DNA of 64,000 bases from Pontimonas sp. (GTDB lineage Bacteria > Actinomycetota > Actinomycetes > Actinomycetales > Microbacteriaceae), in contig JAGYJI010000004.1 in NCBI GenBank assembly GCA_018402295.1, positions 1 to 64,000 on the forward strand, in the 5' to 3' direction. Below, in pieces: positions 40,015-48,959 of this stretch (positions are counted from its first letter, which is position 1; each line of letters opens with the position of its first letter). Both the position numbers and the translations under genes were made by a program. Under the pieces are notes generated by a model. It searched no databases, was not told where the DNA came from, and saw nothing but the letters and a program-made list of their open reading frames with translations.

Positions 40015-40854
40015 TCAACCCCGAGTGCGCACGACCATACTGTCCGGAGTTGTCACATCAATGACCTGTGATTCCCGCGAATCCAGGGCAATCAAAGCGG
40101 CTCTGAGCACGCGAGCCTTTTCGACTGAGCGCTCTGATGACCCCCAGACAACCTCATGTGAGCTTCCCCGGATCGTGAATCGCACATCGTCCAGCGTGGT
40201 GGCCGTAATTCCCTCCACCTGGGCTAACAGTTCATCCGGGAGCGCCAGCAACACCCGACTTATCGCGCTAAAGCTGGGGGACGAGGAATCGGGGGCGACC
40301 AGAATTCGAGGCAATCCTCTAGGGAGAGCGGGCTCCTCCCAGAGCACCACCCCCGCGGCATCGACGACCTCAAAAGCACCGCTGGCACTGACAGCCCCCA
40401 GTGGCTTGCGTTCAAGGATGGTTACCACCAGCGTCCCGGGCGGCTCAATTCGCGTCTCAAACGCCTGAATCAGAGTGAGCGGCTCCAGGGCGCGTTGCAC
40501 CCGCTCGTCACTCACCCGAGCAAGAGGTTCTCCATACAACCCACCCAAAGCCTCAGCAACAGCTCTGGAGGTGACCCGGTCACCTCCCTCGACACGCACT
40601 TCGCGAAAAGCCAGCACCGGCGAGAGCGTCAACACCACCACGCTCAAGATGAGCAGCCCCACACTACCCAGGGATACCGCCCAGGTGATCCGGCGCCGCC
40701 TCGTCGCCTCAGTAAAGCGCCGATACTCCGCTTTTTCGGCCGAGACCCGCTGTTTGCTCGCAGCCCTCACCCGTCGGGCGGGTTGGGGTTTGCTCCGCCG
40801 TCTCGATGATGTGCTCGGAGAAGTGCGGGGAGAGAAACCCTCTGGCCTATCCAC
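40015..40854 (-). CDS. ftsQ: Cell division protein FtsQ (POTRA)
   Basis: 'VLAFREVRVEGGDRVTSRAVAEALGGLYGEPLARV', 'ERKPLGAV'. Confidence 0.88.
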   Translation of the reverse strand: MDRPEGFSPRTSPSTSSRRRSKPQPARRVRAASKQRVSAEKAEYRRFTEATRRRRITWAVSLGSVGLLILSVVVLTLSPVLAFREVRVEGGDRVTSRAVAEALGGLYGEPLARVSDERVQRALEPLTLIQAFETRIEPPGTLVVTILERKPLGAVSASGAFEVVDAAGVVLWEEPALPRGLPRILVAPDSSSPSFSAISRVLLALPDELLAQVEGITATTLDDVRFTIRGSSHEVVWGSSERSVEKARVLRAALIALDSRESQVIDVTTPDSMVVRTRG

Positions 40855-42258
40855 CCGCAGCCTCGCTGACGCGACGCTTCGCAGCTAGGAGTTGCGGCAC
40901 GATTTGGTAGAGATCACCGGTTGACATGGTCAACACAATGTCACCGGGCTTGGCGCGCTGGACGGCCAGCACACAGGCTTTTTCCCAGTCCGGCTCAAAC
41001 TCAAACGAGGAGCTCCCGGCCATTTTCTGCAGAATGAGGTCTGTTGTCACACCCTCAATGGGGTCCTCCCGGGAGCCAAAAATGTCGAGAAATATGGTGT
41101 GGTCGCTCCCGGCAGAGAATGCCTGCGCAAGCTCAGTCGCCATGTATTGGGTCCGGGAATACAGGTGGGGTTGGAACATGGTGATGACGGATCCCTCACC
41201 CACCACGGCGCGCGCTGTCTCCAGCGCTGCCGCAACTTCGGTGGGGTGATGAGCATGGTCGTCATAGAAACGGACACCGGCAATCTCGCCGTGAAACTGG
41301 AACCGTCTATCCGCACCTTCGAAACCACTCGCCGCCTGCGCGGCGTCGGCCAAGGAGAACCCGCTGGCGATCAGCGTGGCGATGACGCCCGTGGCGTTGA
41401 GTGCATTGAGCCTCCCCGGGACAGCGAGCTCGCAGACCGCGCTCAGGCCCTGATAGCTGACACTGAACCGCGCGACCGGGCCGGCCACGAGATCGCTCTG
41501 CACCACATCCGCATCAGGACTCACGCCGTAGGTCAGAATCTTCCCTGTCCCCCCGAGGCGAGACGCGAGGTGTCTCGTTCCTGCATCATCCGCGCAGAGC
41601 ACGACGGCATCCCTGGCCGTCCGGGCACAGTCTTCGAAGGCCTCATAGATGGCCTCGAGAGTGCCATAAAAGTCCAGATGGTCTGCCGCGATGTTCGTCA
41701 CCATCACCACGGCTGGTGCATACCCGACAAAAGATCGATCAGACTCATCAGCTTCGATCACGAAAAGGTCATCTGACCCCCATCGCGAGGACACCCCCAC
41801 TCACTCACCACCCCGCCGTTGACCGCACCAATGTCACGACCTGAGCGATCAAGGGCGGTGGCGAGCATGGCCGTGGAGGTGGTCTTCCCGTGCGAACCAG
41901 CAACGGCGAGAACCTTTTTGTCTCGGATGATCCAGCGCAATGCTTCGGATCGGTGCAACACCTGGAGGCCACGGGCGTGAGCCTCGACAAGCTCGGGGTT
42001 GCCCTCACGAACGGCGCTGGACACCACCACTGTCGTGGCCTCTCCCAGATGTGAGGCATCGTGACCCAGGGACACTCTGATGCCCGCACGTTCCAGGGAT
42101 TCAGTCACTTCTGAGGCGGCCCGATCGGACCCCGACACTGTCAGACCGCGCTCTGCCAGAACACGAGCAATCCCGCTCATGCCCGATCCACCAATCCCAA
42201 TGAAGTGCACGACTCCCAGTTCATCGGGGATTGCTCGACCCAGTTCTGGCCTCACCAC
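40847..42258 (-). CDS. murC: UDP-N-acetylmuramate--L-alanine ligase, frameshifted near 41794
   Basis: 'VAGSHGKTTSTAMLA', 'EADESDRSF', 'HHPTEVAAALE', 'FQPHLYSRT' split over two frames. Confidence 0.94.
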
Positions 42259-46773: not shown

Positions 46774-47417
46774 GCGAGGTCGTCTCTCAACTTCTCCACC
46801 AGAGCGGTAAACGACTCCTCGGTGCTCCCGAGCACCAGCAGAACATCTCCCGGCCGAATATGCGCACGAATGTCATCGTACGCGGTGGTGCTGTCCTCAC
46901 AGAACCGCGACTCTCCGTCCCACGACCCTTCCATACCCACCGACAGGAAAAGAGCTCTCGCACCTCGTCCGATCGCAAAGACCTGGGTCACATTGAGACG
47001 AACCATGAAAGCCCCAAAAGCGCTGAGGTTGTCGTAGTCGGAGGCTCCGGAGAAATCTAGAGCACCGGCCACCGCCACAACGCGACGAGAACCTCGGGCG
47101 AGCGTCGACACAGTCTTGGTGACGTCCACGGCGCGGGAAGCCTGCGTCACGTGTGAGGCATCGACAAAAACAACATCATGGGCCAGTGTCACACCGTGGG
47201 GCAGATCCTGCGCAAAGTCCTGGCCCAGGCTTGCGTCAAGAGCCTCGAGAAGTGTCATGCCTTCGGCGAGGGAACCTCGAACCATGTCCAGCGCCGCCGC
47301 CCTGGCTTCAAGACTCATCCCGGGGATACGCAGAGCCGCTTCCTGCTCCCCTACTGCCAGGTCGGCGCCGGTGGACTCCCAGTCCACCCACTCCCGAGTG
47401 ATACGAAGATCACTCAC
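46770..47417 (-). CDS. MurF-like protein with only the C-terminal part; N-terminal and ATPase domains absent
   Basis: 215 aa between murE and mraY; retains 'SGASDYDNLSAFGAFMVRLNVTQVFAIGRGARALFLSVGMEGSWDG...IRPGDVLLVLGS'; no P-loop and no DAYNANP motif (reads VDASHVTQA). Confidence 0.75.
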   Translation of the reverse strand: MSDLRITREWVDWESTGADLAVGEQEAALRIPGMSLEARAAALDMVRGSLAEGMTLLEALDASLGQDFAQDLPHGVTLAHDVVFVDASHVTQASRAVDVTKTVSTLARGSRRVVAVAGALDFSGASDYDNLSAFGAFMVRLNVTQVFAIGRGARALFLSVGMEGSWDGESRFCEDSTTAYDDIRAHIRPGDVLLVLGSTEESFTALVEKLRDDLA

Positions 47418-48959
47418 GAGGCGTCACCCCAACCGGCGTCGGCGAGCGCCTGCCTCGCCTGATCCCTCGCGGAATAGGGAATCTTCACCCCGCTGATGTC
47501 TCGATAATCTTGGGATCCAGGCCCACTCCACAGGATTGTGTCTCCCTCCCCCGCCAGACCCACCGCAAAGCGAATCGCATCACTGGGGTCTGGAATCTCG
47601 TGCACGGTGACTCCGGGAACGCTGCGTGCCCCCTCGAGGAGCCCCTCGCGAATAACAGCCGGATCTTCTCTGCGCGGATCATCATCGGTGATGATCACGA
47701 CATCAGCCAGCTGGGCTGCCGTTTGACCCATAATGGGTCGCTTGGTGGCATCACGGTTACCCGATGTGCCACACACCATAATCAGCGCGCCGGGGGTGGA
47801 AGCCCTCACGCTGGTCAGCGTCTGCTGATACGCATCAGCACTCCGGCCAGCATCCACGAACACCTGGGGACCAGTGGAACCCGAGACCCGCTCCATGCGA
47901 CCGGGGATAAACACCGGTATTCCCGGAGTTCCTGGTCCCAGAGCAGCGAGTTCGGCGAGGGAAACTCCTGAGCGGATGACCATCAGCGCAGCCAGAGCGG
48001 CATTGGACACCATGTGTTCGCCCTTGAGGGGAACCAGCAGCTCCACCGCGTCACCCTCGCGGGGCTGGAGAACGCACACCGTGTGGTCCACATCGCCGCC
48101 CACAATGTCCCAGGACCAATCAGCCGGTGACTTCCCTCGTCGCCCCAGGGTGGTGCAGGGAATATCGACCATCTCGGCCAGCTTCACCCCCCAGGAGGAA
48201 TCAACGCAGACCACAGCTTCTCGAGCCTTGGCAGCGGTGAACAGCACCGCTTTTGCCTGCAAATAGTTCTCCATCGTGTGAAAGTCCTCAAGATGGTCGT
48301 GGCTGAGGTTAGTGAACCCGGCAACATCACACAGCACATGATCCATGCGGTTTTTGTCGAGAGCTTGAGCGCTGATCTCCAGGGCGATGGCGGTGACCCC
48401 TTCCTCGCGAGCTCGCGCAATCATGGCGTGCGTGTCGGGAGCTTCAGGAGTGGTCAGGGTACTGGGGAATGTCTCACCGCCCACCTGGCGAAGTGCAGTT
48501 GTGGACAGCGCAGTCCGCGCGCCGAGCCCCCGCATAATTGCCTCCAGAAGGAACGCAGTCGAGGTTTTCCCATTGGTTCCGGTCACGCCCAGGATTGTGG
48601 GCATCGAGGCCGATCGAGTGCCATAAATCTCCGCGGATACCCGCCCCAACAGCGCGCGAGGATCATCTGCCACGAGAATCGAGAGCGAGGGGTCACTCAG
48701 CGAGGCACAACCTTCCTCATCTGTGAGAACAGCGGTGGCACCGGCTGCGCTGAGCGTCTGGCCAAAACTCACTGCCATGGCGGTGGACGCCGCGCAGGGC
48801 GACGAAAAGATCTCCGGGTTGAACCGCGGAGGACGCCAGCGCAACACCTGTCACTGTGGCCTCTGGGCCCTGGTGCGCGAGCCCCAAGGACGATGCCAAG
48901 ACACCCACAGGGACGGGGGTGGTAGACCGGGGTCGCAATGCCATAGCGTCTCCCACCAC
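47414..48959 (-). CDS. murE: UDP-MurNAc-dipeptide diamino acid ligase MurE, frameshifted near 48764
   Basis: 'ILGVTGTNGKTSTAFLLEAI', 'STLTTPEAPDTH', 'NLSHDHLEDFHTMENYLQAKAVLF', 'ATKRPIMGQTAAQLADVVIITDDDPRREDP'; N-terminus in another frame. Confidence 0.92.

Follow-up and report, generated by a model that had tools for sequence, protein, structure and literature searches.

The closest described counterpart of the locus analysed here is the alternative MurL-MurD2 pathway of Xanthomonas oryzae and Micromonospora, in which MurL and MurD2 are encoded next to each other, MurI is absent and MurD2 carries residues for L-Glu specificity (PMC8788868). MurD and MurD2 can be told apart at four positions, and two of these determine the D-Glu/L-Glu specificity in Xanthomonas; the review of this pathway neither lists Microbacteriaceae nor describes any MurD or MurF that is kept although catalytically dead (PMC8788868). 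A second related system is the MurG-scaffolded Mur ligase complex of Bordetella, Thermotoga and Caulobacter, for which contacts between Mur ligases, MurG and MraY beyond catalysis have been proposed; in other bacteria, MurF has been reported to contact MraY, and MurD, MurE and MurF to contact MurG (PMC6420597). It has long been asked whether the Mur ligases assemble physically with MraY and MurG, and by what such a complex is held together. Our literature search found no description of Mur ligase pseudoenzymes or of a non-catalytic MurD in dcw clusters.

Here we compare with these systems a window of 64,000 nucleotides, the whole stretch of DNA that was analysed, from a fragmentary assembly (893,649 bases, 60% complete) of the genus Pontimonas (Microbacteriaceae); the closed Pontimonas genome G004 has a chromosome of 1,760,810 bases. 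The genes of the dcw cluster in the window are listed in Table 1. The initial annotation had stated that MurC, MurE, MraY and FtsI keep their catalytic motifs, and direct reading of the minus strand bore this out: AGSHGKTTST and DDHAHHPTE were found in MurC, GVTGTNGKTST and LTTPE in MurE, VNLTDGLDGL and SPLHHHYE in MraY, and SIMK, SSN and KTGTAE in FtsI. Frameshifts split murC, ftsW, the N-terminus of murE and the MurD-like gene in this assembly, as well as murL and the second murF on contig C7, and each of these genes is in a single frame in sister genomes. Since essential genes are also affected and the relatives have the genes in one frame, the frameshifts are best read as sequencing or assembly indels and as no evidence of decay; these single-base changes would mislead automatic annotation. 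The domain losses, on the other hand, are real, since the same loss is seen in 18 sister genomes whose homologues are uninterrupted.

Table 1. Genes of the dcw cluster in and around the two pseudoenzyme genes (positions in the window).
Gene	Position	Strand	Description
murC	40847..42258	-	motifs retained; frameshift near 41790 splits the gene in the window assembly
murG	42252..43352	-	intact
ftsW	43404..44618	-	frameshift near 3' end in the window assembly; uninterrupted in relatives
pseudo-murD	44683..45679	-	about 330 aa disregarding a single-base frameshift near 45373; TTG start overlaps mraY stop; consists of domains 1-2 without a P-loop; domain 3 is missing
mraY	45676..46773	-	intact; between the two pseudoenzyme genes
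pseudo-murF	46770..47417	-	215 aa; consists of the end of domain 2 and of domain 3 (EGSWDGES); lacks domain 1 and the ATPase core; overlaps both murE and mraY by a short stretch
murE	47414..48944	-	catalytic motifs retained; N-terminal frameshift in the window assembly; ORF listed as 47414-48847
ftsI	48991..50736	-	SxxK/SxN/KTG retained

The MurD-like gene of the window matches the N-terminal domain of MurD and, weakly, a part of domain 2; it lacks a P-loop and ends before domain 3. Judged by the residues required of an active MurD, the Pontimonas protein lacks the P-loop, E157, H183, the carbamoylated K198, HR302, DSKATN and domain 3. The AlphaFold model of this pseudo-MurD has a pLDDT of 93.1, and its fold matches the solved MurD structure 3lk7 (E 4e-14, TM 0.75 by query length). 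Across the Pontimonas genomes the protein is encoded in frames without stops, with 37-89% identity to the window copy, and a database search returned many more metagenomic copies of about 330 aa. The MurF-like ORF of the window has no P-loop, and its sole Pfam match of note is Mur_ligase_C, with 28.4 bits at the Pfam cut-off; the ATPase core, the D-x-YNANP motif and domain 1 of an active MurF are missing as well. The pseudo-MurF model (pLDDT 85.8) matches the solved MurF structure 4qf5, and the frame is present in all 19 Pontimonas genomes. The fold matches of pseudo-MurF include the MurE-like PAP11, a structural subunit of the plastid RNA polymerase, which resembles our case in that a Mur ligase fold is found inside a larger complex, but which derives from MurE and belongs to an unrelated process and organism. 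Degeneration of the two genes flanking mraY, as initially proposed, was thus confirmed by domain matches without the ATP-binding motifs and by the presence of the same pair in 19/19 Pontimonas genomes; that these genes are peculiar to one assembly, a possibility which the initial annotation had itself raised, does not hold.

It had also been suggested that the true enzymes are located elsewhere, and a search for further Mur ligase paralogs and murI found a second MurD (MurD2) and a second MurF outside the cluster, while MurI went undetected in the MurL-bearing relatives. In the window's genome, MurL is followed directly by a complete MurD on a contig other than that of the window, and the second MurF-type ligase retains the MurF catalytic motifs. 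MurL was found in 18 of the 19 Pontimonas genomes, the exception being G008, an incomplete MAG that carries the degenerate pair too. In most Pontimonas genomes MurL matches almost the full length of the NF041275 family model at 330-345 bits, which is below its cut-off of 700, a value specific to Xanthomonadales; the copy in the window's genome is split by a frameshift. A MurD2 with a P-loop adjoins MurL wherever both were examined, with an ambiguous base at this site in one copy (G014). At E. coli MurD positions 182, 348, 414 and 416, Pontimonas MurD2 has Glu, Arg, Pro and Phe (EH/R/PSF); other genera have EH/R/PSY or a similar signature, with D at the first position in G240 and G302. No MurI above the family cut-off was detected in any Pontimonas genome, three of which gave weak partial hits, and for the 60% complete genome of the window this absence rests on its relatives. 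Hence, published enzymology predicts that L-Glu is added and subsequently epimerised in Pontimonas, in agreement with the earlier suggestion that the stem peptide may be assembled by other ligases.

The same association was observed across the Microbacteriaceae genomes, which comprise one genome per species and many MAGs. MurL is present in 22 of 400 genomes, the 22 being spread over 8 genera and including Galbitalea soli (G099), Galbitalea sp. SE-J8 (G047), Glaciihabitans sp. dw_435 (G109), a Schumannella MAG (G162) and a Salinibacterium MAG (G296). No MurI was detected in the MurL-bearing genomes examined, compared to 38/39 of the MurL-lacking family genomes tested that have it. All 30 scored dcw MurD copies from MurL-bearing genomes are degenerate, each having lost several residues, compared to none of the 24 from MurL-lacking genomes (21 of the same family and 3 of the same order), where the catalytic residues are intact; for G033 the residue table spans the first two domains only, its MurD match being full-length, and G251 stands outside the table because only part of its dcw MurD was found in frame. 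Since the 21 MurL-lacking members of the family that were compared retain a canonical dcw MurD, as do the 3 of the same order, MurD degeneration tracks the replacement by MurL-MurD2; B-type peptidoglycan, which the initial annotation had raised, was rejected as the driver.

A tree built from seven dcw proteins requires six changes for the MurL-bearing group and seven for the loss of domain 3, and constraining either to one clade was rejected by the AU test (p 2.6e-62 for MurL-bearing genomes, p 5.6e-5 for domain-3 loss). A single ancestral swap was therefore rejected, although the pseudo-MurD gene tree groups most of the dead copies, possibly due to mutual attraction of fast-evolving sequences. 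MurL sequences form three clusters. By a cautious count, domain 3 of MurD was lost independently at least 3-4 times, with the cut located at the domain 2/3 boundary every time (reference position 336-344). The dcw MurD copies are also graded: that of G099 is full-length with some residues lost, that of G240 is full-length without HR and K348, that of G302 has no domain 3 but keeps the P-loop, and these are followed by the P-loop-less forms. While the raw contrast between MurL-bearing and MurL-lacking genomes is strong, the phylogenetically corrected test of the link is only suggestive, as the well-supported branches provide five (5-6) independent pairs, 4-5 of which agree and none of which disagrees (p 0.06-0.13). 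In at least 3-4 lineages the catalytic role of MurD appears to have been separated by evolution from all else, and what is left is a minimal non-catalytic core that ends at a domain boundary, which is clean material for testing the Mur complex. A further candidate, a MurD remnant fused to FtsW in G047 and G049 (frames of 711-731 aa), was rejected; these stop-to-stop frames overrun mraY, and ftsW has an ORF of its own.

The dcw MurF is degenerate in Pontimonas, G047, a Salinibacterium-like genus and G240, always retaining domain 3 with EGSWxGE, and another MurF was found in every checked genome with a degenerate dcw MurF. This replacement is of the ordinary type in G047. In Pontimonas, the Salinibacterium-like genus and G240 it is a predicted membrane protein, in which about 170 residues of hydrophobic segments precede the MurF core (L168:991-2544 in P. 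salivibrio; also L170, L171, L174 and L175). Compared to MurF (TIGR01143), the membrane MurF retains GSYGKTS, SFNN, EMG, the lysine in RAKxEI and DDTYNSNP, but has the hydrophobic segments instead of the UDP-binding domain 1. In P. salivibrio its gene is located between those of an alpha/beta hydrolase and a Ddl-like protein. It is a member of a large family, and our literature search found no description of a membrane MurF. In the 20 genomes compared it occurs only alongside a degenerate dcw MurF, being absent from 6/6 with an intact one. A less likely reading of these sequences is that the membrane MurF of Pontimonas, the Salinibacterium-like genus and G240 might act after MraY, with the lipid-linked tripeptide and not the soluble UDP precursor as the acceptor of D-Ala-D-Ala; the classical order would then be changed, and the dead MurD and MurF at mraY could be remnants of the soluble line serving as an anchor.

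Selection on the dead copies was assessed as dN/dS by the Nei-Gojobori method in close pairs with unsaturated dS, which alone carry the argument because dS was saturated in many pairs. In Pontimonas, pseudo-MurD had dN/dS values of 0.083 and 0.104 and pseudo-MurF a value of 0.053 in each of the two pairs, and the dead copies of a Salinibacterium-like pair gave 0.135 and 0.176, compared to 0.20 and 0.24 for the active MurD and MurF of an ordinary pair. The dead copies are therefore constrained about as much as the live enzymes, and both pseudo-MurD and pseudo-MurF are retained by purifying selection. Pseudogenes or an assembly artefact were rejected as explanations, based on the absence of stops in 19 genomes, dN/dS of 0.05-0.2 and confident folded models. 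In the G049/G162 pair pseudo-MurD is weakly constrained (dN/dS 0.53), indicating that it may be decaying in some lineages.

Half of the invariant residues of pseudo-MurD lie within residues 225-288, away from the former active-site motifs, and the island CVYxx...EGxRAIG...DRAFLxDRxxxALE is kept. As the 225-288 stretch, the strongest conserved island, is conserved also in catalytic MurDs of MurL-lacking relatives, it predates the swap. In pseudo-MurF, the domain-3 element EGSWDGES is a candidate contact site. The same element is common to active actinobacterial-family MurFs and pseudo-MurFs and is absent from the membrane MurF.

Taken with the published contacts, the selection on the dead copies suggests that catalysis probably moved out of the cluster and that the old dcw ligases stayed as non-catalytic parts of a Mur-MraY-MurG assembly. 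Such a scaffold would be the simplest role, because MurF-MraY contacts, as well as contacts of MurD, MurE and MurF with MurG, are published for other bacteria (PMC6420597). Before the swap, MurD and MurF would have had a second, non-catalytic job, most likely that of holding MurE, MraY, MurG or FtsW together at the membrane. When MurL-MurD2 and the second MurF took over the chemistry, the catalytic parts alone would have become dispensable, namely, in MurD, the P-loop, the sites for metal and carbamate and all of domain 3, and, in MurF, domain 1 together with the ATPase core. The contact surfaces, which may be represented by the MurD island quoted above and by EGSWDGES of MurF domain 3, would have been kept. 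In contrast to the MurG-scaffolded complex, in which the ligases are active (PMC6420597), contact and catalysis would here have been split by evolution.

A regulatory or a substrate-carrying role would give the same sequence signature. Pseudo-MurD and pseudo-MurF could be obligate activators or regulators which, like pseudoenzyme paralogues in other systems, bind the replacement enzymes (MurD2/MurL, or the membrane MurF) to stabilise them or to switch their activity; the constraint on both proteins and the co-occurrence of pseudo-MurD with MurL-MurD2 in every lineage examined would fit, but we regard this as unlikely, as MurL-MurD2 elsewhere is active in vitro without a third protein (PMC8788868) and the strongest conserved island is older than the swap. 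It is less probable again that domain 1 of pseudo-MurD still binds UDP-MurNAc-peptide and passes it on: its Rossmann loop GxGxTGF and SPG turn are largely kept, but several species have other loop sequences (GLDATGF, GLGEVGF, GSGDVGF), and the loop is under lower constraint than the distal island. That the dcw copies became redundant after the swap and are slowly eroding would agree with the graded series from G099, G240 and G302 to the P-loop-less forms and with the weak constraint in G049/G162, and is nonetheless hardly probable given frames that stay open in 19 species with identities as low as 37%, dN/dS as low as in active ligases, a confident fold and retention in streamlined genomes. 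Open frames kept merely to couple the translation of murE, mraY and ftsW, as the overlap of several starts with the preceding stop codon might suggest, are very improbable, since coupling requires an open frame and not the strongly conserved amino acids seen here.

Some minor observations concern the distribution of these genes. In the dcw MurD of G302 and G240 (L155, L147) Glu replaces the Asp before the catalytic His, as in MurD2, while their MurD2 has Asp there. G033 (L126), a 98% complete family member of 0.93 Mb, has neither MurI nor MurL, yet carries a canonical dcw MurD. MurL-MurD2, a proposed narrow-spectrum drug target, is here extended to eight Microbacteriaceae genera. MurL relatives are also found in records of Nocardioides, Pimelobacter, Mycolicibacterium, Bifidobacteriaceae and Patulibacter (L236, L240, L244, L248, L266, L280 and others), which lie beyond the genera named in the 2021 MurL review.
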